20,121 bases of DNA from Candidatus Parcubacteria bacterium. Its GTDB lineage: Bacteria; Patescibacteriota; Patescibacteriia; Patescibacteriales; UBA12075. The notes below the pieces were generated by a model. The model was not told the origin of the DNA and made no database searches. It worked only from the letters and a program-made list of their open reading frames with translations. Numbering within the stretch: the stretch's first letter is position 1; the number at the start of each line of letters is the position of its first letter. A program made the position numbers and the translations under genes. The DNA lies in contig JAGLNE010000052.1 of NCBI GenBank assembly GCA_023139655.1, positions 1 to 20,121 on the forward strand, in the 5' to 3' direction. Positions 3,827 through 20,065 of this stretch are shown one piece after another.

Positions 3827-3839
3827 TATTAAATTTAGA

Positions 3840-3959: not shown

Positions 3960-3982
3960 AAAATAATAAATTCTAGAAAGGC

Positions 3983-3987: not shown

Positions 3988-3993
3988 TAACAA

Positions 3994-4230
3994 GTGGTAG
4001 AGTTTAAACGAAAAAAGGGAGAAAGTTTTGAAGCGTTTTTAAGGCGTTTTAATAAAACTTTAATAAAAAGCCGCAAATTAAATGAAGTTCGCGGCCGCCG
4101 CTTCCTACAGCCCAAGAAGAACAAGAGCAAGCAGAAAGAATCCGCTTTAATGGGCAGAAAGATCAAAGCAAAAAGTGAATATTTAAGAAAGATCGGCAAG
4201 CTCAAAGAAGAGCCTCGCCGACGTTGGTAG
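3994..4230 (+). CDS. rpsU: Small ribosomal subunit protein bS21
   Basis: Component of the 30S platform that binds near the 3' end of 16S rRNA and helps initiation. The 78 aa product starts with GTG and is highly basic. The family core VEFKRKKGESFEAFLRRFNK is followed by RRFLQPKKNKSKQKESALMGRK, close to the S21 consensus for the long RNA-binding helices, though spacing differs from enterobacterial S21 (about 71 aa). The start is supported by an AGGTG site 6 bases upstream. A 70-base gap separates it from the GatB/YqeY gene, which may be cotranscribed up to the terminator at 4771. Confidence 0.88.
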   Translation: MVEFKRKKGESFEAFLRRFNKTLIKSRKLNEVRGRRFLQPKKNKSKQKESALMGRKIKAKSEYLRKIGKLKEEPRRRW

Positions 4231-4300
4231 TTGTGTTTTTGCGAATATTATTTTTTATTCTTTGTGTTATCTGATACGGGGATAAATTTATTGTTAGAAT

Positions 4301-4753
4301 ATGAGTTTGATAGATAATATTACAAGCGACATAAAAGAGGCAATGAAGGCTAAAGAAACAGCCAAGTTGTCTGCTTTGCGCATGCTTTTGGCTGCCCTTA
4401 AGAATAAAAAAATTGAGTTAAAGCAAGAGGATGATTTAAATGATGAACAAACAATTCAGATTATAAAGAGTGAAATTAAAAAGCGCAAAGATTCAATTAT
4501 CGCCTACGAAGAAGGTAATCGCGTTGATTTGGCTAAAAAAGAAAACGCAGAGCTGGAAATACTAAGTAAATATATGCCTGAGCAGATGAGCGAGAAAGCA
4601 GTTAATGAAGTGGTTAAGAAAATAGTTTCTAGCTTGGGCGATGTTGGCCCAACAGATTTTGGCCGGGTAATGGGCGCGGCTATGAAAGAATTAAAGGGAC
4701 AGGCTGATGGTACGGTTGTCAGTGAAGCTGTTAAGAAAGTGTTAAATTCATAA
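4301..4753 (+). CDS. yqeY: GatB/YqeY domain-containing protein
   Basis: The 150 aa length and sequence match the free-standing YqeY family, which is related to the tRNA-binding tail of the GatB amidotransferase subunit. The precise cellular role of stand-alone members is not settled. Visible landmarks are ALRMLLAALKNKKIE (about 25-39), the signature KRKDSIIAYEEGNRVDLAKK (about 66-85), LSKYMPEQMSE, and the C-terminal GRVMGAAMKELKGQADG. The protein is nearly all helical and soluble, with no signal peptide. It commonly sits beside rpsU in many bacteria, as here, which supports both calls. The ATG has no clear Shine-Dalgarno. A strong terminator follows the stop. Confidence 0.92.
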   Translation: MSLIDNITSDIKEAMKAKETAKLSALRMLLAALKNKKIELKQEDDLNDEQTIQIIKSEIKKRKDSIIAYEEGNRVDLAKKENAELEILSKYMPEQMSEKAVNEVVKKIVSSLGDVGPTDFGRVMGAAMKELKGQADGTVVSEAVKKVLNS

Positions 4754-4770
4754 TTTAAGATAAAAACAAT

Positions 4771-4797
4771 AAATCACCTTTTCCGAGGTGGTTTTTT
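4771..4797 (+). terminator. Rho-independent terminator after yqeY
   Basis: AAATCACCT (4771-4779) pairs with AGGTGGTTT (4786-4794) through a 6-base loop, with one G-T pair, and runs into six T residues. It lies 18 bases after the yqeY stop. Confidence 0.85.
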
Positions 4798-5076
4798 GTA
4801 TGGATAAATTTTAATGGGTTTTAAATTGCAAAAACAATATCGTTGGCCAAATCACGATTATTCAGATAATGGTTGGTATTTTGTGACAATTTGCACGAAA
4901 AGCAAAGAAGATAATTTAGGCATGTTATTTCCTGTGCTAATGATTTTTTTATTGAATTATCTGATATTGGAAAAATTGTGAATAAATATTGGTTAGAATT
5001 GTTAAATAGTTTTCCAGAAATTAAATTGGATGAATATATTATTATGCCCAACCATGTCCACGGGATAATTGTTATC

Positions 5077-5106
5077 CGTAGGCATTTGATTTATCAAATG
5101 CCTACG
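5077..5106. repeat. REP-like palindrome inside the transposase gene, copy 1
   Basis: A perfect 14-bp stem (arm CGTAGGCATTTGAT, including the outer C-G pair) closes on a 2-base loop TT. The arm has GTAG near its foot, the tetranucleotide that REP elements of RAYT systems carry at the hairpin base. It translates as RRHLIYQMPT within the otherwise variable region after the HUH motif. Confidence 0.75.
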
Positions 5107-5138
5107 CGGAATAATCAAACACCTGCGGATACGCCCGT

Positions 5139-5158
5139 GAATTTGATAAATCAAATTC
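5139..5158. repeat. REP-like palindrome inside the transposase gene, copy 2
   Basis: GAATTTGAT and ATCAAATTC form a perfect 9-bp stem around AA. The core ATTTGAT/ATCAAAT is shared with the palindrome at 5077-5106. CCTAC follows on the right, as in copy 1, and the CGGATACG that comes next (5162-5169) also occurs at 5126-5133, after copy 1. The left GTAGG foot is lost. The two units look like a decayed tandem pair. Confidence 0.65.
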
Positions 5159-5444
5159 CTACGGATACGAAAAATAAAAAAAATAATGGGGATATTTTTC
5201 GTTCCGGGATAAAAAATAATCCAATGGAAATGAAAAAAAATTCATTAGGTAAAATTATACGATATTTTAAAGGTTTATCAACCTATAATATTAGGCATAT
5301 TTACCCAGGTTTTGCCTGGCAACCACGATTTCATGATTGGGTTATCAGGAATCAGGGCGAATTAAATCGAATTAGGAATTATATAATCAACAATCCGTTG
5401 GCGTGGTATAAAGATTGGAATAATTTAAAAAATTTTAATAACGT

Positions 5445-5473
5445 TTGAGAAAAAGTGAAATAATTGCTACAAT
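5445..5473 (+). promoter_or_regulatory. Strong sigma-70-like promoter of the secreted beta-helix protein
   Basis: TTGAGA (5445-5450), a 17-base spacer and TACAAT (5468-5473) each match consensus in five of six positions, and TGC directly before the -10 makes it an extended -10. The predicted transcript starts near 5480 and leaves a leader of about 22 bases. The -35 box overlaps the stop codon of the transposase remnant. Confidence 0.65.
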
Positions 5474-5502
5474 TAGGATATTACTAATAATATTAAAAAT
5501 AT

Positions 5503-7140
5503 ATGTTTAAAAAATTGTGTATTTTATTTGTTTTTATTATTTCCTTAGCCTTTATTGGGCCAGTGGACGCGGCTAGTTTGGCGGACAGTTTATCCGGCAA
5601 AATCCTATTGCAAGTTGAGGATAATGGCGAGGCCTGGTATATTAATCCGGATACTAAAACTCGTTATTATATGGGTCGTCCGGCGGACGCGTTTGCCTTG
5701 ATGCGGGAATTAGGACTAGGAATTTCCAACGCGGATTTTGATTTATTTAATTTAGTTGCTCCCAGTCGTCTATCCGGTCAGATACTGCTCCGGGTAGAGG
5801 AAAATGGTGAAGCGTATTATGTTAATCCGGAGAATAATGAGATGTTGTTTTTGGGGCGGCCGGCGGACGCGTTCCAGATAATGCGCGCGGTCGGTTTGGG
5901 GATTACTAATGCCAGCCTTAGTACTCTGACTATTGAAACCGGCTATGATATTCCCCCTCAGTCCGATTCGGGGCAGGCAGCGGAAGAAGAGCCGGCGCTC
6001 ACTTGTCCGGAATCTTATTGCGACGGCAATATAAATATTAGCTATGAAATACAAGACGAGGAATGCGTGGCCATAGAAGATGATTGCTCGGATTGTTCCT
6101 GTAATTGCGGTGGGTATAATATAAGCGAAGAAGAGGCTAATGACAATTGCGGGGACGGGATTGATAATGACTGTGACGGCTTTTTTGACGACACTGATGA
6201 GGATTGTATATTTAATGGCACTGAGATAAGCGCTGACATAAATGATAATATTATTTGGACCAAAGAAATGAGCCCTTACCGCTTACTTAACAGCATTGAA
6301 ATCGCTAGTAACAAGATTTTAACCATTGAGCCGGGAGTAGCGGTTGAGTTTGTTTTGGCTGACGGCGTTGCGGACTTGGGCGGGGTAAGTATAATTGTAA
6401 AAGGCAGTTTAAGCGCTGTTGGAATGGAAGGCGAAGAAATTACTTTTTTGTCTGTTGTGCCAGAGCCATTGGCCGGGGACTGGGGTGCGATTGAGATAAT
6501 TAATGGCGGTATTGCGACATTTGAATATGTCAGTATTAAGCATGCCAGTACCGCTATTCGAGCCGCTAATGCCAAGAATCTGACAGTGGAAAACACGATA
6601 ATTAGCAATTCTAACACCGGTATATTTACGATTGGGCCGGCTACGATTGAGCATAATTATATTCTGAATAATAAAACCGGCCTGGTGCATGCCGGGGTCA
6701 TTGATTCTATTCGCGATGACGGCAGTTATAAGAATTTTGATCGGATCACGAATATTAATTATAATACGATTCAAAGTAACATCGGTGAGAGCGGCGTTGA
6801 CGCCGGTTTGCGGATTGAGAATATTACTACTGGCGGTTACCGCTTGATATGTAAATTTAACGAACTGGACGCTAATACGAATGGAATATTATTTAAGGAT
6901 AGTGACAGTTATAATTTAATGGAAGTAGAGCAAAATAATATTATGAATTCTCTTGAATATAATGCTTATGTGGACTCGCAGGGCCCGAACATCACCTTAG
7001 AAAAAACCTGGTGGGGAACAACTGTTTTGGATACAATTACAGACAAGATCTTTGATTTCTATGATGTTAATTATTCTCTCCCACAGATAGATTACAAACC
7101 ATTCTACAACGCCCCGGTCAGCGGAGCTGGTGCTAATTAG
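5503..7140 (+). CDS. Secreted protein: duplicated 60-aa repeat, MopE-like motif, beta-helix-like C-terminus
   Basis: The function is unknown. This is a 545 aa exported protein. Residues 1-23 are a signal peptide ending PVDA. Two copies of a domain follow at exact 60-residue spacing (about 31-78 and 91-138), with consensus SG-ILL-VE-NGEA-Y-NP, then LGRPADAF--MR--GLGI-NA. A Cys/Asp-rich segment (168-235) ends in DNCGDGIDNDCDGFFDD, resembling the Cu-binding MopE/metal-binding motif. From about 245 on, the chain has the pattern of a right-handed parallel beta-helix (EPGVAVEF, GDWGAIEIINGG, EYVSIKHAST, VENTIISNSNTGI), as in polysaccharide-binding or lyase-like surface proteins. No catalytic motif was recognised. 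It has its own extended -10 promoter and converges on rel. It is probably a wall- or surface-exposed protein. Confidence 0.85.
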   Translation: MFKKLCILFVFIISLAFIGPVDAASLADSLSGKILLQVEDNGEAWYINPDTKTRYYMGRPADAFALMRELGLGISNADFDLFNLVAPSRLSGQILLRVEENGEAYYVNPENNEMLFLGRPADAFQIMRAVGLGITNASLSTLTIETGYDIPPQSDSGQAAEEEPALTCPESYCDGNINISYEIQDEECVAIEDDCSDCSCNCGGYNISEEEANDNCGDGIDNDCDGFFDDTDEDCIFNGTEISADINDNIIWTKEMSPYRLLNSIEIASNKILTIEPGVAVEFVLADGVADLGGVSIIVKGSLSAVGMEGEEITFLSVVPEPLAGDWGAIEIINGGIATFEYVSIKHASTAIRAANAKNLTVENTIISNSNTGIFTIGPATIEHNYILNNKTGLVHAGVIDSIRDDGSYKNFDRITNINYNTIQSNIGESGVDAGLRIENITTGGYRLICKFNELDANTNGILFKDSDSYNLMEVEQNNIMNSLEYNAYVDSQGPNITLEKTWWGTTVLDTITDKIFDFYDVNYSLPQIDYKPFYNAPVSGAGAN

Positions 7141-7147
7141 GGCAATT

Positions 7148-7285
7148 AAGGACGCAAGACACAAGGATATAAGATGCAAATAAATTAGAAGATACAAATT
7201 TTATGATACAAACGATTTGAAATCGAGTTTTTAATTTTCAATTTGTATCTTGTTTGTATCCTTGTTTCTTGTAGCTTGTATCCTT
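7148..7285. repeat. Long imperfect palindrome of AAGGATACAAG-type words
   Basis: The left arm (from AAGGACGCAAGACACAAGGA at 7148) and the right arm (ending CTTGTATCCTT at 7285) are imperfect inverted copies built from GATACAA/AAGATACAA words. A small perfect hairpin, CGATTTGAAATCG, lies near the centre (7213-7225). No ORF is inside. It lies between two convergent genes. Confidence 0.65.
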
Positions 7286-7307
7286 CTTATAAATATATTG
7301 TTATCCC

Positions 7308-7338
7308 AAAAACCATCAACGTTTAGCTGATGGTTTTT
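7308..7338. terminator. Bidirectional terminator between convergent genes
   Basis: AAAAACCATCA (7308-7318) and TGATGGTTTTT (7328-7338) form a perfect 11-bp stem with a 9-base loop. A-run and T-run on opposite sides let it work on both strands. It overlaps the rel stop codon (7337-7339). Confidence 0.85.
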
Positions 7339-8803
7339 ATATTCCGGGGATCATTTTTTTGATCTGGTCCAGCTTGCTTGCTTTAGTGGCTTGCCTAATT
7401 TTTTCTCTGGCCCGGTGGGTTTTGACGAATTTAAGCCAATCGCGGTTTGGTCCTTTGCGGTTTTTTTCGGTAATAATTTCCACCAGATCGCCGTTTTTAA
7501 GGGGCTGGTCCAGGGAGGACATTTTATTGTTTATCAAAGTACCGGTTGCCTTATTGCCAATTTCGGTATGGACGATATAAGCAAAGTCTACGGGCGTGGA
7601 ATTTTTCGGCAGATCAAAGACATCGCCCTGGGGCGAAAAGACAAAGATACGGTCATGGAAGACATTTAGTTTTAAATTGGAAATAAAGTCATTAGTACTT
7701 TCACTTTCACGTTGGATGCGCAATATTTCTTTTATCCATTGCGGTTGGCTGGTGTAGCTTGCTTCGTCGCCATCTTTTTGCTTATAGTGCCAATGGGCGG
7801 CAATTCCGTAAAGCGCTTCCTCATGCATTTCCCGGGTACGAATTTGGAATTCGGTTGCCCGGTTTTCCGGTCCGAACACGGTTGTGTGCAGACTGCGGTA
7901 GCCGTTGGGTTTGGGAACGGCGATATAATCTTTGATCCGGTCGGGATTGGGCTTCCAAAGAGAGTGGATAATGCCCATGGTTTTGTAGCAATCAGAAATA
8001 GTCGGGACAATTACGCGCAAAGCAAATACATCATAGATCTCATCAAATTTACGGTTTTTATTTTGCATCTTCATATATATTGAATAAAGATGCTTAAAAC
8101 GATCTTCAATATCGTATTCTATTTTTTCTTTACGCAACGGCGTGTCGAGAATATTTTTAATTTTTTGCGAGTATTGATTGCGTTCTACTTTTTTTTCCAC
8201 TTCATATTTATATTCCAGTTTTTTATATTCTTCCCCGTAAAGATATTTAAAACAAATATCTTCCATTTGCCATTTGAGGCGCCAAATACCAAGTAGTCCG
8301 GCAATCGGGGCGTAGATCTCCATGGTTTCCCTGGCAATTCGGGTTCTTTTTTCCAAAGGCAGAGCGTCCAGAGTGCGCAGATTATGCAGACGGTCGCAAA
8401 ATTTGATCAGGATAACGCGCAGGTCGCGCGCCATTGCCAGGAACATTTTTCTCAGGCTCTCACGATAACGCTCTACGCCGCGATATTTGATCTTACTTAA
8501 TTTGGTAATACCTTCAACCAGGCCGGCAATTTCCGCGCCAAAGTTTTTTTCTATGTCTTCCAGGGATTTTTCCGTATCTTCAGGAACGTCGTGGAGAATG
8601 CCGGCAATTACGGTATTAATATCCGCCTTAATTTGCGCAAGCAGGAAAGCCGTATGAAGGCTGTGCTGGATATATGGTTCACCGGTTTTGCGCTTTTGTT
8701 TATCATGGGCCTTATCAGCAAAATCATAAGCCAGCTTAAGCAGATCCAAGTCTGCTTTAGGATTGTTGCTTTTAACCTTATTAATTATTTGCTGAATGGT
8801 CAT
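7337..8803 (-). CDS. rel: Bifunctional (p)ppGpp synthetase/hydrolase (RelA/SpoT family), short form
   Basis: This protein makes and degrades the stringent-response alarmone (p)ppGpp. The HD hydrolase domain (about 20-175) keeps the metal and catalytic residues: His47, His71-Asp72, Glu75-Asp76 in HDVPEDT, and Asp137 in DRLHNLR. The synthetase domain (about 215-345) has RFKHLYSIYMKM, DVFALRVIV, KDYIAVPKPNGYRSLHT and the EFQIRTREMHEEALYGIAAH motif. A TGS domain (about 370-440) reads DRIFVFSPQGDVFDLP. The protein ends at 488 aa, soon after TGS, whereas typical Rel proteins reach about 700-750 aa with helical, zinc-finger and ACT domains. A terminator overlaps the stop, so this looks like a settled short form and not a fresh truncation. 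The ATG at 8803 is preceded by a good promoter. Confidence 0.95.
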   Translation of the reverse strand: MTIQQIINKVKSNNPKADLDLLKLAYDFADKAHDKQKRKTGEPYIQHSLHTAFLLAQIKADINTVIAGILHDVPEDTEKSLEDIEKNFGAEIAGLVEGITKLSKIKYRGVERYRESLRKMFLAMARDLRVILIKFCDRLHNLRTLDALPLEKRTRIARETMEIYAPIAGLLGIWRLKWQMEDICFKYLYGEEYKKLEYKYEVEKKVERNQYSQKIKNILDTPLRKEKIEYDIEDRFKHLYSIYMKMQNKNRKFDEIYDVFALRVIVPTISDCYKTMGIIHSLWKPNPDRIKDYIAVPKPNGYRSLHTTVFGPENRATEFQIRTREMHEEALYGIAAHWHYKQKDGDEASYTSQPQWIKEILRIQRESESTNDFISNLKLNVFHDRIFVFSPQGDVFDLPKNSTPVDFAYIVHTEIGNKATGTLINNKMSSLDQPLKNGDLVEIITEKNRKGPNRDWLKFVKTHRAREKIRQATKASKLDQIKKMIPGI

Positions 8804-8805
8804 TT

Positions 8806-8835
8806 TTGATTTTTTATTGATTTTTATGTTATAAT
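8806..8835 (+). promoter_or_regulatory. Extended -10 promoter toward the 8942 gene
   Basis: TTGATT (8806-8811), an 18-base spacer and TATAAT (8830-8835) with TGT directly before it give a perfect extended -10. The leader would be about 100 bases and includes the hairpin at 8878-8929. Its -10 region overlaps that of the divergent rel promoter. Confidence 0.5.
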
Positions 8836-8862
8836 AATATTACATAACTGTGGATTAGTCAA
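8834..8862 (-). promoter_or_regulatory. Promoter of rel
   Basis: Read on the minus strand, TTGACT (8862-8857), a 17-base spacer and TATTAT (8839-8834) match sigma-70 boxes in five of six bases each. It lies about 30 bases upstream of the rel ATG. Confidence 0.6.
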
Positions 8863-8877
8863 TTGTTTTTAGAAAAC

Positions 8878-8929
8878 AGAAAGCAGAAAAAAGATTTTTA
8901 AAATTTCTATTTTCTATTTTCTGCTTTCT
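8878..8929. repeat. Palindrome in the leader of the 8942 gene
   Basis: AGAAAGCAGAAAA (8878-8890) is perfectly inverted at 8917-8929. Related words AGAAAACAG and TTCTATTTTCT extend the symmetry on both sides. It would form a stem in the transcript about 12 bases before the ATG at 8942, so it could affect translation, or it could simply be another intergenic repeat. Confidence 0.6.
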
Positions 8930-8941
8930 ATTCAATTTCCC

Positions 8942-11569
8942 ATGCAAAAAAATATTAAATTATTCATCAATATAAGCAAAATAGCGATAATTTTGTCGAT
9001 TATAGCCGTCGCTGTTTTTTTATTGTCTTTTAATATAAGCTGGGCCCAGGAACCGGGTTTGGGAATAAATTACGCGGCTAATATTGGTTTAGAGCGGTCA
9101 GATGGGGATTTACGCGATTTGCTCGTAAATATTATTAAATACATATTGTCTTTCTTGGGGATTATCGCGGTTTCGGTAATAATGTATGCCGGTTATTTAT
9201 GGATGACCAGCGGCGGTAGCGCGGATAGGCTGGCCCAAGCGAAAAAAACCTTAACCAACGGCGTGATTGGCCTTATTATTATTGTTTTATCATTCGCGAT
9301 TGTAACATTTATTGTGAATTTATTAGGAGATGGCTTAAGTGGCATTGGAGACGGACAGCCTCGTCCCGGCGGGATCGGCCAGGGCATGGGTGTGATTGGT
9401 GCCTGCACGGTGGAGAGTGTTTATCCAGAACCGGGCCAGCTGGATGTACCGCGAAATACCTCTATAATCGTCAGTTTCAAAGAGCCTGTTAATCCAATGA
9501 CGATTTGCGGAGCAGCAATATGCAATGGTTCACCGATTGTTGCGGAAAACATAAGGCTTTTTAATAATAATCAGGGTGATTCCTGCTGGTGGGACGGGTC
9601 ACTAACTCCACCACAATGGGTTGATTGTGACGTCAGTAATATAGTGGACGTTTCGGTTACCCAGGCAGGAAATATTTTTGTTTTTGTCCCAAATAATTAT
9701 CTTGGTTCGGCTTCAGAAATAATCTGGCATACTATGCGTTTAACTAATGATATTACCGACGTTGATGGCAATGGTATTTTTAATTCTTGCCGTAATGATT
9801 TTCTTGCCTGGTCGTTTGAGGTCAGTAATCGCCTTGATCTAACCCCGCCAATTGTTCGCTCAGGTGGTGTTTATCCGTTTCCGGATGACGGCCAGGATAC
9901 CAGTACAATGTCTAGCGCCACCGCAGCGACCGGCCAGATTGTCGTAAACGCCCAGCCAGCGTTTTACCGTCCAGCCCAGTTGGGACCCTTAGGAGTAGTG
10001 AAGAACCCCCCACTTGCTATTTGGAATGATGCTGATGCCAGTGTTAATATTGATTGTGTTCAGGATGGTGATATTACAGTGGAGGTTATTGACGATATGA
10101 CCGGCACGGTTAGATTTAGCAGGGGAGCAATTCTTTTGGGGTCGGCTACTTTTAACGCTAATCAAGTTACCTTTTCGGGCTGTTTTACCTTGAGTGTTTT
10201 GGGTGATGGTACTTACGCGACCGGGAATTCCTGGAATGTGCCGATAATCGGCCGTACCACGTCAGATTCTTTGCGTGTTGGCAGTACCAATTACCGTTTT
10301 ATTGGGAGTGGCGTACCGGCTGGCAATGAATTTTTAATAGGCGCGGATATAAATTCAACCGCCGCCAGTATTAGCGGCCAATTAAATAGCACAAATATAC
10401 AAGTTAGCGCTACTGTGGCTGCTAACGTTATTAATATTACGGCCAGTACACCAGGTTCGGCCGGAAACAGCATTGCCTTAAGCAGTGACAATAACATAGC
10501 TTTTGCTTTTACACCAATGTCAGGCGGCACTGAGGCCGGCATAACGGTTGTTCCGGTTGATCTTTTGGACAAACCACGCAATTCAGTTATTCAAATAAAT
10601 TTTAATGAAGCAATTAATCCCATTACCGTTTCCGGTGATGCGACTGCGGTTAGTAATGTTATTAGGGTAAGATGTGTTAGCGGCACTTGTGACGGGATAG
10701 ATACAGGCGTTTGCCCTGATTGTATAAACGGCAGTTTTGTAATATCCAACCAATATCGGACAATAGAATTTATTTCTGACAATGAATGCGGCGCTAACGG
10801 TTGTGGCGATCCGATCTATTGTTTGCCGGCTGACTCAGAGCTTTTAATTGAATTAGACGCGGCTTCGCTTGAAGCTTGTATTAATTGTACGGCCAAGTCT
10901 CCTTATACTGCTTGCAATGTTCATTGTCAAAATCCAACCAGCCTGGAGTTTTATCCCTTGGCCAATTTTAGCGCTTTGGATGGTATTATGGACGCGGCCC
11001 TTAATTCTTTTGACGGGGATAGGAGTGGTGACGCGCTCGGACCCGGTTCAAGCTGGAACGAAAATACAATGAGCGGTCTTGGTGATGATTTTATTTGGTC
11101 TTTTTGGATAAACAACACAATTGACGCGACTCCGCCTGCCATTACTCTTACTACTCCGGCCAATATTGACACTAATGTTGACCTTGATTTACTCATAGAG
11201 ATTCAATTTGATAAATATATGATGTCCAGCAGTCTTAGGACAGGTAAAAGCGTATCTTGGCGTAATGATGACAGTGTAATACACTCTCATATTAATTTGC
11301 GTAATTTTGCCGGACGCTCAACCGGTTATTGGATAACCAAAGAGGATTTTGATAGTGAACCTGATGGTTTTGTTGATTATACTACCGCTTATATTAATCA
11401 TTCCGATATGGCCGAGGCGGTTTCGTATCGCGCGCAAGCCGGCAGTGGATTGCGTGATATTAATCAGAATTGTTTCAAACCATCGGACGGGCCGGCTTGT
11501 GTCGGCATAGACGATGCTAATCCCAGTTGCTGCTCAGGGACGGTGTCGTCGGATCCGACTTGTCCATAA
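8942..11569 (+). CDS. T4SS-pilin-like core fused to Ig-like (Big_5) ectodomain, 875 aa
   Basis: The N-terminus is a signal peptide (helix about 12-31, SWA before Gln36) followed by a VirB2/TrbC-like pilin core: INYAANIGL, a helix at 61-88 containing LGIIAVSVIMYAGYLWM, a short polar turn (GGSADRLAQAKKTL), and a second helix at 107-129. Known pilins of this type end here, but this chain runs on for 740 residues. SbsA/Big_5-like Ig domains start at about 154 (PEPGQLDVPRNTSIIVSF), 533 (VPVDLLDKPRNSVIQINF) and 728 (TPANIDTNVDLDLLIEIQFD). A module at 444-533 ending SGGTEAG resembles a domain of phage tail-sheath proteins. Cys pairs are scattered in the distal part. It is the tandem paralog of the 2058 aa gene. 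The likely role is a surface adhesin or pilus-associated subunit; whether it polymerises is unknown. Confidence 0.82.
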   Translation: MQKNIKLFINISKIAIILSIIAVAVFLLSFNISWAQEPGLGINYAANIGLERSDGDLRDLLVNIIKYILSFLGIIAVSVIMYAGYLWMTSGGSADRLAQAKKTLTNGVIGLIIIVLSFAIVTFIVNLLGDGLSGIGDGQPRPGGIGQGMGVIGACTVESVYPEPGQLDVPRNTSIIVSFKEPVNPMTICGAAICNGSPIVAENIRLFNNNQGDSCWWDGSLTPPQWVDCDVSNIVDVSVTQAGNIFVFVPNNYLGSASEIIWHTMRLTNDITDVDGNGIFNSCRNDFLAWSFEVSNRLDLTPPIVRSGGVYPFPDDGQDTSTMSSATAATGQIVVNAQPAFYRPAQLGPLGVVKNPPLAIWNDADASVNIDCVQDGDITVEVIDDMTGTVRFSRGAILLGSATFNANQVTFSGCFTLSVLGDGTYATGNSWNVPIIGRTTSDSLRVGSTNYRFIGSGVPAGNEFLIGADINSTAASISGQLNSTNIQVSATVAANVINITASTPGSAGNSIALSSDNNIAFAFTPMSGGTEAGITVVPVDLLDKPRNSVIQINFNEAINPITVSGDATAVSNVIRVRCVSGTCDGIDTGVCPDCINGSFVISNQYRTIEFISDNECGANGCGDPIYCLPADSELLIELDAASLEACINCTAKSPYTACNVHCQNPTSLEFYPLANFSALDGIMDAALNSFDGDRSGDALGPGSSWNENTMSGLGDDFIWSFWINNTIDATPPAITLTTPANIDTNVDLDLLIEIQFDKYMMSSSLRTGKSVSWRNDDSVIHSHINLRNFAGRSTGYWITKEDFDSEPDGFVDYTTAYINHSDMAEAVSYRAQAGSGLRDINQNCFKPSDGPACVGIDDANPSCCSGTVSSDPTCP

Positions 11570-11576
11570 AATAATA

Positions 11577-11692
11577 AAGCATCAAATAACAAATTTTAAA
11601 TAACAAATAAATTCTAAATTACAAATTCAAAATAATTAATATAAACAGTTTTGGTTATTGAAATTTTGAATTTATTTGGTATTTGGTTGCTT
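11577..11692. repeat. AT-rich imperfect palindrome (CAAATAACAAAT type)
   Basis: AAGCATCAAATAACAAAT at the left is an imperfect inverse of the right end ATTTATTTGGTATTTGGTTGCTT (ending 11692). The internal words ACAAATTC and GAATTT continue the symmetry toward a centre near 11640. There is no ORF. It lies at the 3' end of the 875 aa gene and could stop or stabilise its transcript. Confidence 0.65.
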
Positions 11693-11777
11693 ATGTCATT
11701 CTGAGCCGAAGGCGAAGAATCTCGTGGATATAGAGACGAGATCCTTCACTCCGCTAGCGCTTCGTTCAGGATGACAT
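11693..11777. repeat. Palindromic GTCATTCTGAG-type intergenic repeat
   Basis: ATGTCATTCTGA (from 11693) pairs with TCAGGATGACAT (to 11777) with one mismatch, and GAAGAATCTCGT (11714-11725) pairs with ACGAGATCCTTC (11735-11746) with one mismatch; a TATA-containing loop lies between them. I recall very similar GTCATTCTGAGCGAAG repeats from several unrelated bacterial phyla, but have not checked this. It directly abuts the repeat at 11577-11692. Confidence 0.75.
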
Positions 11778-11797
11778 AGAGAGTTTAAATCATTTGA

Positions 11798-14700
11798 ATG
11801 AATATTTTCTATAAAAAATTAATATTCTTATCCCTCTTTATTTCTAGCTTTTTGGTGGTTGGTTTTGCAATGGCGCAAGCTGATTTGGGGATTAATTATG
11901 CGGCTAATTTAGGTCTGGAGGGGGCGGTTGGCACTGATCCAAGGGTTTTGATCGTAAATATCGTTAAATATTTTTTAAGCCTTCTTGGAATTATAGCGGT
12001 AGCTATAGTAATGTATGCCGGTTGGTTATGGATGACCAGCAATGGTGACCCGGAAAAAATAAATAAAGCCAAGAAAGCTTTAACCGGCGCAATAATTGGT
12101 TTAATTATTATACTATCAGCTTTTATGATAGTTGTTTTTATTTCCCGTTTTGTTTCGGACGCGATTTCTCCGCCTTGCAACGCGGTTTGTGCAAGTGGAG
12201 AAAAGTGTTGCCAGGGTAGCCCGGATTATTGCTGTGCCAATGCCGAAATTTGCTGTAATCGGGGCGGGGTTAATGAATGTTGCGCTGCCGGCGGGTATTG
12301 CTGTGCCGGCATTGGTTGTTCTATCACGCCCTGCAGCACCTTAATACCGTCGGTTTTTCAGCTAAGCTCAACTGTGCCAATGGATGGTAGTACTAATGTG
12401 ATTAAAAATGTGCGTTTGCGTTTTAATTTTAATTTAAATATTGATCCACTGACCGTGGATGCGTCCAGCGTTGAAATATCAGACAGTGTCGGCCCGGTAA
12501 GCGGTGATTTATCTGTAAGCGGTAAGCGTATTATTTTTGAACCTGACGCAGGGACTTGCCCGGCTAATCCGTGCAACGCGGATAGGTGTTTTGCGACCGG
12601 CACTCATGTTACGGTTTTGATCCATGACCTAGTAAGCAGTAGCGGCCGGCCTTTAGAGCAATGGATAAATCCTGCTACCAGTTTGGCCGAGAATTGCGGG
12701 ACAACGGGAAATCCTTGTACGGTCAGCTTTGACGTTGGCGATCTTATTGATTGTGAAGATCCGAATGTGGGGTTGAATATTACTCAGGTTTGCCAGGCGG
12801 CTAATAACCCGATAGATGCCTGGGCCCAGGACGACAGCGGAGTGGCCGATATTGAGCTTTTGGTTGATTCTAATCCTTATGACATAAATGTAAACGGGGC
12901 TGCCGCTAATCCGTTTTTTACTACATTTAATTGGGATGGCAGCGGCTATACACCCGGAACACCGGTTACATTTACGGCCCGGGCCAATGACTATGACGCG
13001 CACACCAGTAGCCGAAGCATTACTACTATACTTCGACCTGAACATTGCTGTGATGGGTGGTTGAATTTTGACGAAACCGGGGTTGATTGTGGCGGAACCG
13101 AATGCGCCAGCTGCGATGGAGCGGCTTGCGGAGCGAGCTTGAACGACGATTGTGATATTGACGAGAATGGAACACCAGACATAGATTGCACTTTAAATAA
13201 TTCCCGCTGTTCGTCAAATTTTTGCGATTGTGATATGAGTGGAGCGGATTGCCAGATAGTTGGCTACGCTGCCGGAATAGACGATTGCTGTCTTTGCCAA
13301 AGGCCGCCAACTATTGATTGGGTTACGCCGTTGGGAGGTTTTTGCCGTGACGCAGCCGATAACCCGACTAATAATCCTTGTCAAAGAGACACTGATTGCG
13401 TGGTCGGTTATTGCGATATGGATACCGGCAACGGCGCGGTGGGGAATTTAATTACTATTATTGGCAGGAATTTTGGTTCGGCTGCTGGGATTGTTGAAAT
13501 AGACGGTGTGCCCGCGACCCATATAATCCCCGGTTGTCCCAACACCTGGGCCAATAACCAGGTAATTGTCCAGGTACCGCCCGGAGTCTCACTGCCAATT
13601 ACTAACGTGATAGTAAGACTGGAAGCGGCCAATGGCTACGAAGATACGACCGGTTTTGATGCCCGCGGTCCGGTGCTTGATTTTTTAATTAATTCGATTG
13701 TTCGGCCCGGTTTATGCGGGATTACCCCGGACACGGCTTCATTGGGCGCTACTATTGACTATGTTGGTATTAACCTGGGCGGCAGTTCGGCTTTTTTTGG
13801 AAACATCAGTTCAAATATTGCCGCTATTGATATGGGTCCTTTTGGCGCAACCACTGGCCAAGCCGGAGTGCCAAATTTGCAAAACGGGCAAACCTCAACT
13901 TTTAATTTAAATGGAATAATTAACAGTAATTATTTAACTTTTACAAAAATCGCGGAAACACCGCCTGGTCCGTCAATAACCGGTTTTGATCCGGATAACG
14001 GCGCTCCAGGCCAATATGTTACTATTAGCGGTACCGGATTTGGCGCCAGCCAGGGAAGCAGCCAGGTATTTTTTGGCACTGACGAGGCGGATTACAATTT
14101 TCCCGCAATTTGCGCGGACAGTATTTGGGGGGACAATCAGGTAATAGTTAAAGTGCCAAGCATTGGCGCTGGGCCGTATGTCATTTCTATGGACCTGGGC
14201 GTCAGTATTATTGACACCAGTGCTCTGACCCCGTCACAATTTACAGTCAATACCACGGTTCGTCCGAATCTATGTAAAATTCAGCCCGTGATGGGCCCTA
14301 ATAATAGTAATATTAGTCTTTGGGGAGAAGATTTTGGCGCACCTCCGCCGGCAGGATTGGTTCGTTTTCATTCCGGCGTTGACCAGACTATTGTAACACT
14401 CTGGGGAGTAGAAGCAGATGCTATGCGGATTGATACGACTATTTCCGGTGCGGCTATTTCCGGCCCGGTTAAGGTGGTCCAGGGAGGAGTCGAGGGTAAT
14501 GGACTTGATTTAACAATTGGACTTTGTAGCGCCGCTCCTAATCCGGACGCGGCTTGTGGTACTTGGTTTTGTTGCCCGGAGAACACCTATCGCGAAGGGC
14601 GCTGCGTGGCTGACCCGGCTGACCCGGTTAATGGCTGTGACCTGGCCCTTTCCAGCTCGGTCTATGAATGGGATTTTAGCACTGAGGATGTTACATACGC

Positions 14701-17700
14701 CGGCTGGCATGATCCTTGCCAGGAACCGCTAAGTATGGTTTGTACTGATATAACTTTACCGATTTGCGATCCTAACCAGGATTTATTTTGCGATGAAACG
14801 CAGAGTTGTATCTGCGAATTTAATTCTAATACTGATGATAGCTGCCAGGCCCGGTCGCTTAGGCTTGGTAGTTGTGAGCCTTATTTTTGCCCTAATTCTC
14901 CGGGTGAATGCAGCCCGTATGCCGGTCAGGATATAGTAGTTGATACTTGCGACCAGACATGCAATGGAGTGGCTAATTGTGCGACTGCCGGTTGTACCTA
15001 CTATGCTGACCGTGATCAATGTGTTCTGGATTCATTAGTTTGCACTAAGACGGTTCAAGATGTTTTTAATAATAATGTTATTGCCCGTTGCCAGGATTCA
15101 AGTAGTGAAATGCGCTGGCACTTTGCCACTCCGGGCAGCTGTCCGCTTGGCTGGACCATGACGACTAACAATCGTTGCCAAGAGGATGGAGCAGGTGGTT
15201 TGTGTTCACTTTGCCCCAGCGGTTTTAGCTGCCAAGACCATGACAATGACGGTGATGGCAGCTGCCTTAGTGATGAGCAGCTTTGCCCGGGCGCGCCGGC
15301 TTGCAACGCGGCTAACGAATGTATAGAAATTGACAATGGCACTTGTGAATGTTGCTGCGAGATCGGTCAAGACGCGCGTGACTGTTGTTGGCCCCTTACC
15401 TGCGAAGGGGAATGCGGTGATGATCGGATAACCGATACTGATACTTATGGCTATTGCTCGGGCTGTGCCAACACGCCGGATCCGGACGCGGCCTGTAATT
15501 GTGAAGGGCATAGCGGTAAGTTTTGCGATTTAAGCGTTCCTAACGGAGTTTGCCGGGATTGCGCCGGACTTGGTACGGCTGATTGCCAAGCGCATAGCAA
15601 TGTTTGCTGTCTGGACGCGATGGCCGGGGACCAGTGCCGCGGCGGAGATGGCAATTTGCTTGCGAACGGGGTTTGCGCTTATTTTAATTGCGATACGGTT
15701 CAGCCTTGGCTTTGCGCCAGTACGACCCCGATTACTACCGGTACTTATAGTTCTGTAAATACCTGTAGCAGTGATTGCGCGGCGACGTATGGGAATAATG
15801 GCGGAGAATCGTGTTATAACCCGACTCTTGGCAACTGCTCTTTGCCTTGTAGTAGCGGCTACTCGTGCTTGGGTATTAGTGGTTGTTCCGCTGCCGGTTG
15901 TAGCGCTTATGACAGTACTTGCCGCTGTTGCTGTACGCCGGGTGCGGGTGACAATTGCAACCTTATTAACCCTCAGCTGGTATGTGAACCAGATTTGTCG
16001 CCTTGTTCCGGCACGGCGCGCGGGCTTTGTTGTGGTTGTTCAATTGATACGGATTGTGGCTTGCCGGCTATTAGTGCCGGTTGTGGCCAGGATTCGTGTT
16101 GTCGCGCCCGTCCAGATATAGTTAGCACTATGCCGGCGGATGATGACGACCTGGTTTGCCGCAATGCGGCTGTAATTGCTAATTTTAGCCAACCTATTGA
16201 TACGGGAAGCCTTACCGGTAATGTCTTGGTAGTAGGTGAATATGACGAGCCATGTCCGGTTGGCACCCAATTTTTAGCGGCCGCTGACTTTGAACCAATT
16301 AGTCAAAATATAGTAATTAGATATATTAATAACGCGTGGTTAGGATTTAAAAATTTAATCGCTAAAATATGGCTCAATGATACGGCCTATGCTTATGTTA
16401 ATCCGCAGACAAATATGAATTATTGCGCTATTACCGGCGGTGCTACCGGCTATAATGATCCTGTCGGCAATGGAGTAATGGAGTTTCGCTCTAATCGCTT
16501 ATTGGACGGTAATCGGCGGTATTATGTAATTGTTAAGGGTGACAGTAGTTTGGACAGCTCAAGCGGAGTGCTTAATCAATGGGGGATCGGGCTTAATTCG
16601 TCTGATAATCCGTGGCAGAGTCCTTCCACTGGCAATAATATTTTTAATGGTATTGATTATATTAATGCTTATGTCTGGACTTTTACTACCATGGACGACC
16701 AAGGTCCGGGACAAGGGGTATGCGAGATCGGCCAAGTACTGGTTCGTCCGTCAAGTTATTTATTTCAAACCACTACCGAAAATGCTAATGAAACGGATAA
16801 TGTGCCGACTGACCCTAGTTTTGACACCAGGGCGGACAAAGACAAAGTATTTGTTGCTCAGGCGCGCAGCCAGAATAATCAGGTTTTAACGCCGGTTCCC
16901 GGCTATGCTTGGGACTGGGTATGGAGCTCGGATCTTCCTGCGGTGGCTGATATTACCAATGAAACCGGCTGGCCGGCTGGTGAACGTCGGCAACTGGTAG
17001 AGGCTGATAGTGGAGCCAGTGACGCCAATACCTATATCCGGGCAGAGATTAATCTTACTGATTCAACATATTCAACCGTTGGCGACGGCGTTGTTGGCGC
17101 GGCCCGGGTTTATGTATTTTTATGCTCTAACCCATGGCCACCGGTTGTTGCCGGAACCTGGAGCCCTTGGATCGATAATAGTGGTAATTGCACTATCGGT
17201 GCTGGTAGTTGTTATGATACGCATTTTGAGCTTTATTATTGTCGGGACGAAGGACAATTTGGTTCTTATGACGATTTGCCGTCACTGGTAAGTGGCAATG
17301 AACAAATAATACGCAGTCAAGAAGGAGAAATTTTGAAAGAGGCTTTCTTCCCCCGCGCTTCTAGCCCAGTCGGAACCACGACATTAAACGTGTCTAATAC
17401 CGGTATCGGCAGGACAGTAGATGTTAGTTGGCCGCACATTACCATTGACCCTTTGATTATCGGTTATCGTTTGTATTGGGGGAGCTCGCCTGGCAATTAT
17501 AGTGATTTCGTTACTATATATAATGATGGCAGTGACAACCACGAGAATGTTGGCCCCTGCGCGGGCGCGAATAATTTCGCTTGCGCGGTAACGTCTCTGA
17601 ATAATAACCAAACCTATTATTTTAGTTTAACTAGCTTTTACCAATCCGGGGTTGAGAGCGGTCATTTTGGTGAAGTGTTGGTTGATGTCGCTGATACTCT

Positions 17701-17974
17701 CGCACCGCCCACACCGATACTTCTTCCTATTACTGTCGGCAATTCGGAGCTTACGCTTAGCTGGAGCCCGATCCCGGACGCGGATAGCTATATTGTTTCG
17801 TACGGCATAAGTAGCGGTGCTCCTTATGGCTGGTCGCAGAATATCGGCAGTGACACAAGCGTAATAATTTCCGGCTTGACCAGTGGCACAACCTATTATT
17901 TCGTAGTTCGTTCCTCGGATAACTATGGTAATGAGAGCCCGGATTCAAATGAAGAGAATGCTGTGCCGAATTAA
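11798..17974 (+). CDS. Giant Cys-rich surface protein with T4SS-pilin-like N-terminus, IPT/TIG and FN3 domains, 2058 aa
   Basis: The first 120 residues repeat the plan of the 875 aa neighbour: signal peptide to about Ala26, INYAANLGL, helix 52-79 with LGIIAVAIVMYAGWLWM, linker DPEKINKAKKAL, and helix 97-118. Next come a Cys-pair domain (127-179, 14 Cys, granulin-like spacing), a Big_5-like Ig domain (about 185-310), a DCGG/CxxC segment (410-500), four IPT/TIG-like domains (about 503-620, 635-720, 725-805, 820-905), a very Cys-rich region (908-1437), another Big_5-like domain (from 1438), an Ig-like stretch, and two fibronectin III domains (about 1861-1965 and 1968-2058). A hand count gives about 130 Cys. 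CxCCC occurs at 1183-1187 and 1375-1379. No enzymatic motif was seen. It is probably a long disulfide-stabilised adhesin anchored by, or assembled through, the pilin core. The next gene starts 32 bases after its stop. Confidence 0.82.
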   Translation: MNIFYKKLIFLSLFISSFLVVGFAMAQADLGINYAANLGLEGAVGTDPRVLIVNIVKYFLSLLGIIAVAIVMYAGWLWMTSNGDPEKINKAKKALTGAIIGLIIILSAFMIVVFISRFVSDAISPPCNAVCASGEKCCQGSPDYCCANAEICCNRGGVNECCAAGGYCCAGIGCSITPCSTLIPSVFQLSSTVPMDGSTNVIKNVRLRFNFNLNIDPLTVDASSVEISDSVGPVSGDLSVSGKRIIFEPDAGTCPANPCNADRCFATGTHVTVLIHDLVSSSGRPLEQWINPATSLAENCGTTGNPCTVSFDVGDLIDCEDPNVGLNITQVCQAANNPIDAWAQDDSGVADIELLVDSNPYDINVNGAAANPFFTTFNWDGSGYTPGTPVTFTARANDYDAHTSSRSITTILRPEHCCDGWLNFDETGVDCGGTECASCDGAACGASLNDDCDIDENGTPDIDCTLNNSRCSSNFCDCDMSGADCQIVGYAAGIDDCCLCQRPPTIDWVTPLGGFCRDAADNPTNNPCQRDTDCVVGYCDMDTGNGAVGNLITIIGRNFGSAAGIVEIDGVPATHIIPGCPNTWANNQVIVQVPPGVSLPITNVIVRLEAANGYEDTTGFDARGPVLDFLINSIVRPGLCGITPDTASLGATIDYVGINLGGSSAFFGNISSNIAAIDMGPFGATTGQAGVPNLQNGQTSTFNLNGIINSNYLTFTKIAETPPGPSITGFDPDNGAPGQYVTISGTGFGASQGSSQVFFGTDEADYNFPAICADSIWGDNQVIVKVPSIGAGPYVISMDLGVSIIDTSALTPSQFTVNTTVRPNLCKIQPVMGPNNSNISLWGEDFGAPPPAGLVRFHSGVDQTIVTLWGVEADAMRIDTTISGAAISGPVKVVQGGVEGNGLDLTIGLCSAAPNPDAACGTWFCCPENTYREGRCVADPADPVNGCDLALSSSVYEWDFSTEDVTYAGWHDPCQEPLSMVCTDITLPICDPNQDLFCDETQSCICEFNSNTDDSCQARSLRLGSCEPYFCPNSPGECSPYAGQDIVVDTCDQTCNGVANCATAGCTYYADRDQCVLDSLVCTKTVQDVFNNNVIARCQDSSSEMRWHFATPGSCPLGWTMTTNNRCQEDGAGGLCSLCPSGFSCQDHDNDGDGSCLSDEQLCPGAPACNAANECIEIDNGTCECCCEIGQDARDCCWPLTCEGECGDDRITDTDTYGYCSGCANTPDPDAACNCEGHSGKFCDLSVPNGVCRDCAGLGTADCQAHSNVCCLDAMAGDQCRGGDGNLLANGVCAYFNCDTVQPWLCASTTPITTGTYSSVNTCSSDCAATYGNNGGESCYNPTLGNCSLPCSSGYSCLGISGCSAAGCSAYDSTCRCCCTPGAGDNCNLINPQLVCEPDLSPCSGTARGLCCGCSIDTDCGLPAISAGCGQDSCCRARPDIVSTMPADDDDLVCRNAAVIANFSQPIDTGSLTGNVLVVGEYDEPCPVGTQFLAAADFEPISQNIVIRYINNAWLGFKNLIAKIWLNDTAYAYVNPQTNMNYCAITGGATGYNDPVGNGVMEFRSNRLLDGNRRYYVIVKGDSSLDSSSGVLNQWGIGLNSSDNPWQSPSTGNNIFNGIDYINAYVWTFTTMDDQGPGQGVCEIGQVLVRPSSYLFQTTTENANETDNVPTDPSFDTRADKDKVFVAQARSQNNQVLTPVPGYAWDWVWSSDLPAVADITNETGWPAGERRQLVEADSGASDANTYIRAEINLTDSTYSTVGDGVVGAARVYVFLCSNPWPPVVAGTWSPWIDNSGNCTIGAGSCYDTHFELYYCRDEGQFGSYDDLPSLVSGNEQIIRSQEGEILKEAFFPRASSPVGTTTLNVSNTGIGRTVDVSWPHITIDPLIIGYRLYWGSSPGNYSDFVTIYNDGSDNHENVGPCAGANNFACAVTSLNNNQTYYFSLTSFYQSGVESGHFGEVLVDVADTLAPPTPILLPITVGNSELTLSWSPIPDADSYIVSYGISSGAPYGWSQNIGSDTSVIISGLTSGTTYYFVVRSSDNYGNESPDSNEENAVPN

Positions 17975-18006: not shown

Positions 18007-18825
18007 ATGTTTGATGATGCAGACAATAAAACAAGCGATAACACGAGCGAAGGAGGGGATAATACAACTCCTGCGGCTCCACCACCGGCTTCTGTTGATA
18101 AAGAAAAGCCTTCGGGGGACAACGTAGTGCCTGTTCCGGCTAGTGATTTGCCTACACCCGCGGTCCCAAAAAGTCCGCCAGCGCCTGCCGAATCCAAGCT
18201 AAATGCGGGAGTGGAAGATATTTTTTCCGATACTGAGGCGGGTGAAGCTGAACCAATAAAGCCAGCCGCGTTTCAGCCAAAGGCTAACCTTACTCCCAGA
18301 GAAGATCTAAGCGTAGAAGAGCCAAGCGGTAATAAGTTTAGAAAGATAATAATTTCGCTTGTTTTGATCGTTGTCTTGGGCGCGATTGGCGTAGGCGGAG
18401 TGTATGGCTACAAGTATGTAATGAATTTAATCGGTGAGGAAGATGCTAAAGCAATAAACGCTCCTGAAGATGAAAATACGCAAGGTAATATTATTGAACC
18501 GAAAACCGTTGAACCACAGCCAAAAGACATTATAGAGCCGTCAGAGGAGACTGAGCCTGTTCAAATGCCGCCAAGCAGTCCCACGTCTATGCCGCCTTTG
18601 GACACCGATAATGACGGTTTAAGTGACCAAGAAGAAATAACGCTCGGTACAGATATAAATAGCGTAGACACCGATAATGATGGTTTGTTTGACCGGGAAG
18701 AAGTTTATGTCTATAAAACCGATCCGACTAACGAAGACACGGATGGAGACGGGTTTTTGGACGGCGCTGAAGTGCGGGACGGATATAACCCGAACGGGTC
18801 AGGCAAGCTTTATGAAATAAATTAA
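18007..18825 (+). CDS. Single-pass membrane protein with thrombospondin type 3 repeats, 272 aa
   Basis: The function is unknown. Residues 1-112 are a disordered Pro/Glu/Ala-rich tail without a signal peptide, predicted to stay inside. A membrane helix spans 113-135 (KIIISLVLIVVLGAIGVGGVYGY). After a Glu/Pro-rich spacer, three TSP3-type repeats begin at 199, 221 and 244 (DTDNDGLSDQEE, DTDNDGLFDREE, DTDGDGFLDGAE); their DxDxDG spacing is that of calcium-binding loops. The chain ends 19 residues past the last repeat. It lies 32 bases downstream of the 2058 aa gene and is likely cotranscribed, although a TATAAT (17981-17986) without a good -35 lies in the gap. It may act as a calcium-dependent partner of the giant ectodomains. 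Hairpins follow the stop. Confidence 0.82.
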   Translation: MFDDADNKTSDNTSEGGDNTTPAAPPPASVDKEKPSGDNVVPVPASDLPTPAVPKSPPAPAESKLNAGVEDIFSDTEAGEAEPIKPAAFQPKANLTPREDLSVEEPSGNKFRKIIISLVLIVVLGAIGVGGVYGYKYVMNLIGEEDAKAINAPEDENTQGNIIEPKTVEPQPKDIIEPSEETEPVQMPPSSPTSMPPLDTDNDGLSDQEEITLGTDINSVDTDNDGLFDREEVYVYKTDPTNEDTDGDGFLDGAEVRDGYNPNGSGKLYEIN

Positions 18826-19042: not shown

Positions 19043-20065
19043 ATGGCAAATGAAAAAGATAAAATATTGGCTGAGATAAATATTCCCGGCGCTCTAGCCG
19101 ATGGCGGATTAAAAAAGAAAGACACGACAGTAATCCATGCGATGCCGAAAAGTTTTTTAAGTTCAACCACTCCCGGTAAAGACAAAACTAAGCGGGTTGG
19201 CCTTTTAATTTTAGTTTGCGGAGGAATCCTATTAATTGCGATATTTGCCGCGGCTTATTATTATTTAACAAATTATAATTCCAAAGTGGATATCCCAGCT
19301 ACAAGCCAAATCGAGAAAACAGAAAATGTTTTGCTTAAAGACGATAAAATTCTTGAACCAGAGCCAATCGTAGAATCTCCTCCACTTAATGGCTTAGAAC
19401 AAGAAGAAGCAGTAGAGGAAACAGATATTAAGCGGGTAAATATGGCCACTAGCACTAATACTTTGGAGGCTACTTCAACCGTGATTGAAGTTGAGCCTGT
19501 TCCGGCGGTTATTAGTTATTCCAGTGACAGCGACCAGGATGGATTGAGTGATCTGGAAGAAATTCTCTTGGGTACTGATTTGCAAAAAATCGACTCGGAT
19601 GATGACGGCTATGACGACAAATCGGAATTATTAAACCTTTATAATCCGGGTGGAGTGGGAGAAATTGTAACCAACCCAAAGATAAAGAAGTACACTAACG
19701 CGACTTACCGTTATTCCTTGTATTATCCGGACGCCTGGTCAGTTGAGCGCGTGGGCGGTGATGAGTCAATAATGCTTAAGTTGGATAATAACCAATTTTT
19801 TCAAATAATAGTGTCCTTAAAGACCGATGGCCTGTCTCTTGAAGATTGGTATAAAAAAGAATTTAATGTGCCGACAATTAATCCAGATCAAAAGCTGTAT
19901 AAGCAAGGTTGGACCGGCATAAAAAGCCAGGATGCGATGATAATTTATTTGGTTTATCCAAATGAAGAAAAATTATATACCGTAACCTACAATCTGGGCT
20001 TACAGCAAACAATCAGCTACCAAAATATATTTGAGATGATGGTTAATAGTTTGGAGCGTACATAG
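19043..20065 (+). CDS. Single-pass membrane protein with thrombospondin type 3 repeats and PsbP-like C-terminal domain, 340 aa
   Basis: The function is unknown. Residues 1-51 are a basic cytoplasmic segment, followed by a membrane helix at about 52-78 (VGLLILVCGGILLIAIFAAA) and an acidic linker. Two TSP3-like repeats begin at 162 (DSDQDGLSDLEE) and 184 (DSDDDGYDDKSE). The C-terminal domain (about 212-340) opens with YRYSLYYPDAWSVE and has alternating strands, as in PsbP-like/lipoprotein domains of Patescibacteria and Gram-positives. The design parallels the 18007 gene (tail, helix, linker, TSP3), so they are probably distant paralogs, this one with an added globular head. The ATG start has no Shine-Dalgarno; TATAAT at 19019-19024 without a clear -35 is a possible -10. 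Confidence 0.82.
   Translation: MANEKDKILAEINIPGALADGGLKKKDTTVIHAMPKSFLSSTTPGKDKTKRVGLLILVCGGILLIAIFAAAYYYLTNYNSKVDIPATSQIEKTENVLLKDDKILEPEPIVESPPLNGLEQEEAVEETDIKRVNMATSTNTLEATSTVIEVEPVPAVISYSSDSDQDGLSDLEEILLGTDLQKIDSDDDGYDDKSELLNLYNPGGVGEIVTNPKIKKYTNATYRYSLYYPDAWSVERVGGDESIMLKLDNNQFFQIIVSLKTDGLSLEDWYKKEFNVPTINPDQKLYKQGWTGIKSQDAMIIYLVYPNEEKLYTVTYNLGLQQTISYQNIFEMMVNSLERT

Follow-up and report, generated by a model that had tools for sequence, protein, structure and literature searches.

The nearest concept to the proteins described here is that of the modular type IV pilins, as portrayed in the available sections of PMC8179133. In PilB and PilC of Streptococcus sanguinis a small pilin module is combined with a large vWA or lectin-like module, and this functional module is thought to be displayed at the filament tip. 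The type IV secretion system (T4SS) pilins known from Patescibacteria are short (PMC12102498 and PMC10633639, both in part). When PF18895 and other profiles were run over 3,035 Patescibacteria genomes, arrays of 2-11 pilins were described, and in the text available no PrgB-type adhesin was reported (PMC12102498). T4SS pilins and several adhesin-like proteins were essential in one genetically tested Saccharibacterium (PMC10633639, in part). According to the accessible part of PMC12857230, neither VirB2 nor VirB5 is found in T4SSs of Gram-positive type, with an exception for Patescibacteria. Large membrane proteins with fn3 and lectin-like domains have been proposed for host recognition by episymbiotic Patescibacteria (PMC13059738, with PMC12206443 as background, each in part).

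The window, by which the whole stretch of DNA that was analysed is meant, is an entire contig of 20,121 bp (G000:C97) from a genome of 1.19 Mb in 148 contigs with a completeness of 89.65%. Its organism is a tiny bacterium, probably dependent on a host, of a class that we take to be ABY1. The preliminary description of this DNA placed in it two open reading frames for giant pilin-adhesin fusions, and both were confirmed, at 8942-11569 (+, 875 aa), here F1, and at 11798-17974 (+, 2058 aa), here F2. As in PilB and PilC, the large functional module is attached to a small pilin module. However, PilB and PilC are type IV pilins with a class III leader that is handled by prepilin peptidase, whereas F1 and F2 have a two-helix T4SS_pilin core and a Sec-type signal, and the largest modular type IV pilin named in the available sections of PMC8179133 has 860 aa, far from the length of F2 and of its still longer relatives. 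With the VirB2-like pilins and arrays of Patescibacteria, F1 and F2 share the Pfam family and the genomes, and in phylogeny their fused cores are nested among those of the short pilins; F1 and F2 differ in being giant and in lying apart from the array and from T4SS genes. A giant pilin fusion is not mentioned in the accessible text of PMC12102498 or PMC10633639. No description of such fusions was found in the full-text literature searched, in which most subscription papers and preprints are absent.

VirB5 is located at the tip of the T4SS pilus. Like PrgB-type adhesins it is a possible functional counterpart of F1 and F2 in contact with a partner cell, but VirB5 and PrgB are separate proteins, PrgB being LPXTG-anchored (PMC12857230, in part), whereas the ectodomain of F1 and F2 is part of the pilin. 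With the proteins of PMC13059738 they have in common the very long surface chain and the fn3 and lectin-like domains; in the part of that paper available a pilin core is unmentioned and the organism belongs to the Absconditicoccaceae. For the recognition and holding of hosts by uncultured Patescibacteria the pair supplies concrete candidate genes, and for its class no described host-contact mechanism was encountered in the literature. The pair is hidden by annotation: among the F1 relatives listed, at least 120, the names are mostly hypothetical or Ig-like, and two read "pilin".

Two giant proteins with an N-terminal T4SS pilin core

The features of the tandem and of the genes behind it are as follows.

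8942..11569, + strand: F1, classed as a modular T4SS pilin, 875 aa (open reading frame; PF18895 and Big_5; relatives in the class)
8942..9046, + strand: signal-peptide-like segment of F1, residues 1-35 (hydrophobic at 14-32, A-x-A type site after residue 35; heuristic)
9110..9337, + strand: pilin core of F1 (PF18895 at 61-124; AlphaFold2 helices at 57-88 and 94-132)
9389..11566, + strand: ectodomain of F1, all-beta, Big_5, conservation highest in the C-terminal third (profile match, alignment, model)
11798..17974, + strand: F2, classed as a modular T4SS pilin, 2058 aa with 130 Cys (open reading frame; Pfam matches)
11798..11875, + strand: signal-peptide-like segment of F2, residues 1-26 (hydrophobic at 8-26, A-x-A type site after residue 26; heuristic)
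11948..12142, + strand: pilin core of F2 (PF18895, 48.8 bits in the genome search, 42.4 bits with hmmscan)
12155..17971, + strand: ectodomain of F2 (Big_5, TIG, fn3; model of residues 495-1650)
13970..14245, + strand: TIG domain of F2, residues 725-816, the better of two (Pfam)
14843..15667, + strand: Cys-rich stretch of F2, about residues 1016-1290, with many invariant Cys (alignment)
17729..17941, + strand: fn3 domain of F2, residues 1978-2048 (Pfam)
18007..18825, + strand: TSP3-repeat protein with a single TM segment, 32 bp 3' of F2 (PF18884), probably in the operon of F2
19043..20065, + strand: second TSP3-like membrane protein (sequence), a possible operon member

The VirB2/TrbC-like core that had been proposed for both proteins was recognized by the T4SS_pilin profile PF18895 (curated cut-off 26.6 bits), in F1 at residues 61-124 (32.8 bits, E 7.3e-8) and in F2 at residues 51-115 (42.4 bits, E 7.3e-11). 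Below their cut-offs remained the TrbC/VirB2 profile PF04956 in F1 (19.6 versus 27.9 bits; 25.3 for the core alone) and the NCBIfam profile of the Mbov_0395 pilin-like conjugal transfer protein (25.7 in F1 and 31.1 in F2 versus 40 bits). At 875 and 2058 aa neither protein has the small-pilin size of about 100 residues, and they are for that reason called a modular variant. The source genome has 15 PF18895 matches, seven of them on contig C42, all in frames of <160 aa except F1, F2 and one frame of 250 aa.

Whether the N-terminal helices match no VirB2-like profile, or generic anchors only, had been raised as the weak point of the pilin idea. The idea survived: at E<=0.01 PF18895 matched all 42 cores scanned (32 fused and 10 short) and the TrbC/VirB2 profile 19 of them, and the other open reading frames of the loci had no core match. 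Of 79 named Falkowbacteria-like loci, 71 hold F1 followed by F2 on the same strand (the tandem loci). With a core HMM made from the fused cores of this analysis their paired frames scored at least 50.5 bits; among the 4567 frames of the 79 loci the next best, after eight F1/F2-type frames and one 246-aa pilin, reached 10.9 bits. A generic two-TM anchor was dropped as the identity of the core since the other frames of the same loci lack a match to this HMM. A type IV pilin was dropped as well, the N-terminal methylation motif having no match in Pfam or NCBIfam at the thresholds used. The core profile gave three matches among solved structures, none convincing (best E 0.68), and no solved VirB2 pilin was recovered by sequence.

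A signal peptide had been noted at both N-termini, and in both a hydrophobic segment is followed by a plausible signal-peptidase site (hydropathy, -3/-1 rule). By hydropathy, three N-terminal hydrophobic segments are present in 68/71 F1 and 70/71 F2 proteins of the tandem loci, with additional weak internal segments in 7 F1 and 14 F2. Neither F1 nor F2 of the window showed an anchor at the C-terminus. In the tandem loci a C-terminal TM segment was seen in none of the 71 F1 and in one of the 59 complete F2 proteins, and the same counts were obtained in a pattern scan for LPxT[GAS] close to the C-terminus. An LPXTG adhesin of the PrgB type was dropped because the C-terminal sortase motif and TM tail are missing, bar one F2.

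The lengths given for the ectodomains in the preliminary description, about 740 and 1940 residues, fit. Its assignment of Ig, TIG and FN3 domains holds for Ig-like Big_5 in both proteins; TIG and fn3 occur in F2 only. The AlphaFold2 model of F1 (67 sequences, mean pLDDT 86) has two long core helices at pLDDT of about 72-85 and an all-beta ectodomain that is mostly above 90. Residues 495-1650 of F2 (42 sequences, pLDDT 79.7, pTM 0.42) were modelled as a chain of beta domains that includes the Cys-rich part. Compared with the PDB by Foldseek, both models resemble generic Ig/IPT chains, which is uninformative on function. Among 20 F2 proteins, picked so as to include the longest, the Pfam domains found at E<=1e-4 were Big_5 (18), TIG (17), T4SS_pilin (17), fn3 (10), Laminin_G_3 (5), CBM_4_9 (1) and Dockerin (1). 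A search of 5.8 billion proteins with the F2 core, which depends on shared 5-residue words, returned 15 long proteins of 1297-3349 aa, one of them with a VWA and a Laminin_G_3 domain.

Spread and surroundings of the tandem

The tandem, made up of two modular T4SS-type pilins that each have a giant ectodomain, is real and widespread. F1 is about 85% identical to the F1 of a metagenome-assembled Candidatus Falkowbacteria (L059), which NCBI places in the Patescibacteria group. In an alignment with the loci of 16 relatives, selected for showing long fusions, identity to F1 and F2 of the window was 35-49% outside the same genus. PF18895 matches are present in all 29 genomes of the relatives sample, the source genome included. 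F2 was matched in 28 of these, with the matches of G023 and G027 confined to the fn3-like end; the lack of a match in G001 is due to a contig end inside F2. By its ectodomain profile (E<=1e-10) F1 was found in 30/379 genomes of the phylum sample, all within the class of the window (33 sampled there), and in 0/346 outside it. In the class sample 246/380 genomes have F1 relatives, a number in which distant orders may be under-counted because the profile was built within one order. F1 is present in 35 of the 37 family and order members of that sample, on the assumption that the listed non-matches are sorted by kinship. The F1 of G005, unmatched in the class sample, probably lies beyond a contig end; this genome keeps F2, whose start is some 0.5 kb away from the end of C5.

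In the tandem loci the median gap between F1 and F2 is 38 bp and the median length of F1 is 891 aa; F2 is complete in 59 of them, one a 189-aa fragment, with a median of 1931 aa. The longest complete F2 among the named loci has 3287 aa. The longest frame seen, of 4681 aa, is in G211:C18, with a T4SS pilin core at its head (36055-36234, -). Eight loci have a single core frame of >=180 aa (L083, L098, L099, L109, L113, L121, L123 and L126), and several of these are short contigs.

It had been suggested that virB4 and virB6 genes be looked for near the pair. Neither was found in the window; PrgI and a VirB4-like ATPase are encoded elsewhere in the genome, on contig C94. Upstream of the pair in the 71 tandem loci, homologues of three window genes recur, which we take to be RelA-like (57 loci, opposite strand), HisRS-like (51) and LepB-like (48), and by direct search homologues of the TSP3 proteins of the window were found downstream in 32/71. 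No T4SS gene recurs beside the pair in the 71 loci. In the fetched stretches around short-pilin arrays, the T4SS proteins of C94 had no real match (best E 0.13). Elsewhere in the window, positions 5503-7140 (+) encode a secreted 545-aa protein with two GKILLQVEDNGEAWY-like repeat copies and, probably, a beta-helix; the protein had no match in the Pfam scan and a homologue in just 2/71 related loci. The frame at 4978-5448 (+) resembles, judged by eye, a REP-associated (Y1-type) transposase.

VirB4 was found in 27/29 relatives and in 355/380 class genomes, where it is commoner than F1. Of the 25 class genomes without VirB4, 20 were listed, six of them with F1 (G651, G419, G211, G489, G507 and G514). 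All six keep the pair of long pilin-headed frames, five of the six also have short pilins, and PrgI was found in 0/5 searched. Short pilins and the fusion pair with no VirB4 or PrgI match were observed in G514, a one-contig assembly, and in G211, G651, G419 and G489. A seventh genome with the pair, G015, likewise had no VirB4 or PrgI found; in G027 the pilins are kept, and F1, F2 beyond fn3, VirB4 and PrgI were not found. Such genomes are compatible with a plain anchor, with ATPases that were missed, or with a pair whose tie is to the pilins and not to VirB4.

Resemblance between fused and stand-alone cores

A survey for the same N-terminus on short pilins and on long fusions had been proposed, and both were found side by side in the same genomes, with one copy each of F1 and F2 versus many short pilins. 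In a tree of 183 cores all 34 fused cores, from 17 genomes, fall in one clade with 30 of the 143 short pilins (support 0.75). The short pilins of this clade open the short-pilin array in most genomes looked at; in G026 a weaker pilin precedes them. The cores of F1 and F2 are sisters in 7/17 genomes, five with support >0.9. Over the 71 tandem loci core identity between F1 and F2 of the same locus is 0.581, versus 0.439 between loci and a maximum of 0.459 in 2000 permutations; between loci it is 0.454 for F1-F1 and 0.453 for F2-F2. Fused cores and the short pilins of the clade have an identity of 0.524 within the same genome and 0.438 when permuted (0/2000; 14 genomes). For the remaining short pilins almost no within-genome effect was seen (0.334 versus 0.329; 56/2000). 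The overall closeness of the clade is partly by construction, because it was picked on the same alignment; the within-genome excess likeness is independent of how it was picked. Between genomes the fused cores are conserved at 0.495 and 0.501 and the matching short pilins at 0.541.

Five loci were chosen for high F1-F2 identity. In L111, a named copy of L044 (F1 at 1482-4403, F2 at 4495-11079), the core DNA of the two genes is 98-100% identical over 300 aligned columns and the DNA outside the core near 50%; weaker core-only identity was seen in L106, L077, L120 and L074. Gene conversion confined to the core would be the simplest mechanism for identity of the L111 type. Recurrent conversion of this kind suggests that the cores must fit one another. 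As far as sequence comparison can tell, the pilin part of F1 and F2 is not a generic anchor.

A proposed place in the pilus and its alternatives

The reading that we prefer, with a probability of about 0.58, takes F1 and F2 as minor pilins of a modular, VirB2-like kind that present giant adhesins on a T4SS-type pilus and are co-assembled with the short pilins. Its support consists of the family match, the conservation of the tandem, the nested phylogeny, the within-genome likeness and the finding of no other anchor. The core-confined DNA identity in L111, the lectin-like Laminin_G_3 and CBM_4_9 domains of some F2 proteins, and the use of the core by another gene to bear a lytic transglycosylase also speak for it. 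Display on, or co-assembly with, a pilus had already been put forward in the preliminary description; it is favoured, short of proof, by the resemblance of fused to stand-alone cores within genomes. Against a pilus speak the position of the pair, which is not next to T4SS genes, its being kept without detectable VirB4, and the higher frequency of VirB4 than of F1 in the class sample. Both proteins would be exported by Sec, after which the signal peptide would be removed. The hydrophobic hairpin is predicted to lie in the membrane, its charged loop on the inner and the C-terminal chain on the outer side. It would then pack with the stand-alone pilins of the genome, most likely those of the subfamily found as a rule at the head of the short-pilin array. 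The giant Ig, TIG, Cys-rich and fn3 chains would thereby be kept on the outside of a T4SS-type pilus, at its tip or base, and could there bind a partner cell. Topology, polymerisation, position in the pilus and adhesion are all predicted in this scheme, and co-assembly is suggested by the core sequences. Domain content, together with the papers on other Patescibacteria, points by analogy to host contact, and since the fusion pair is kept across a large class it may hold other cells. If true, the modular-pilin principle of type IV pili would apply to type IV secretion pili as well.

The main alternative, which we regard as unlikely but well worth weighing, is that the pilin hairpin is a plain membrane anchor and that F1 and F2 are surface fibres in the cytoplasmic membrane, never in a pilus. 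The remoteness of the pair from T4SS genes and its retention in the six listed VirB4-negative genomes and in G015 agree with this, and a hairpin that serves as anchor would make other anchors unnecessary. However, conservation of the fused cores between genomes comes close to that of the matching short pilins, and within genomes the two vary together, which a plain anchor would not need, unless the conversion is neutral, as gene conversion between similar neighbours can be. Besides, nearby membrane proteins have ordinary TM segments without a core match.

Improbable, in our estimate, is docking of the cores on the membrane part of the T4SS, at the level of VirB4/VirB6, as a fixed collar of the channel without a long pilus: the presence of VirB4 in most relatives and class genomes and the single copies of F1 and F2 beside many short pilins would suit it, but seven genomes keep the pair without detectable VirB4. 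That F1 and F2 are mainly structural envelope proteins of an S-layer-like coat, with the pilin core as membrane attachment, is very improbable, for although the chains are Cys-rich, conserved and Ig-like, the numerous generic fold matches of F2 include S-layer proteins and F1 is nearly universal in family and order (on the assumption on sorting made above), Pfam scans of the window proteins and the 20 F2 proteins gave no recognised S-layer assembly domain and the likeness to one short-pilin subfamily would be left unexplained.

A second group of proteins with the core consists of medium modular pilins, about 230-580 aa long, and because these use the core too, its role as carrier extends beyond a single gene family. 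Tentatively, the T4SS-type pilus of this class might be a modular contact organelle with a VirB2-like shaft, the adhesins F1 and F2, and medium pilins bearing cell-wall enzymes, in some of them a lytic transglycosylase. Host recognition and wall opening would then be domains of pilins, functions that belong to separate proteins in known T4SSs. A 340-aa protein of G005 (L175:2399-3421) has a lytic transglycosylase domain (SLT, E 7.5e-18) fused to its T4SS pilin core, in the manner of a VirB2-VirB1-like fusion. Five other medium modular pilins scanned, and likewise the one of the source genome, had no second Pfam domain above cut-off. With the L175 protein as query, at least 10 of 111 genomes of the order gave a match past residue 300, among them G005, G748, G715, G706, G792, G747, G763, G762, G623 and G768. 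In L173, L174, L175 and, in the source genome, at L195:1516-2226, the medium modular pilins have about 230-340 aa and frequently lie next to each other in pairs; the gene beside them presumably resembles a 2-oxoacid:ferredoxin oxidoreductase subunit.
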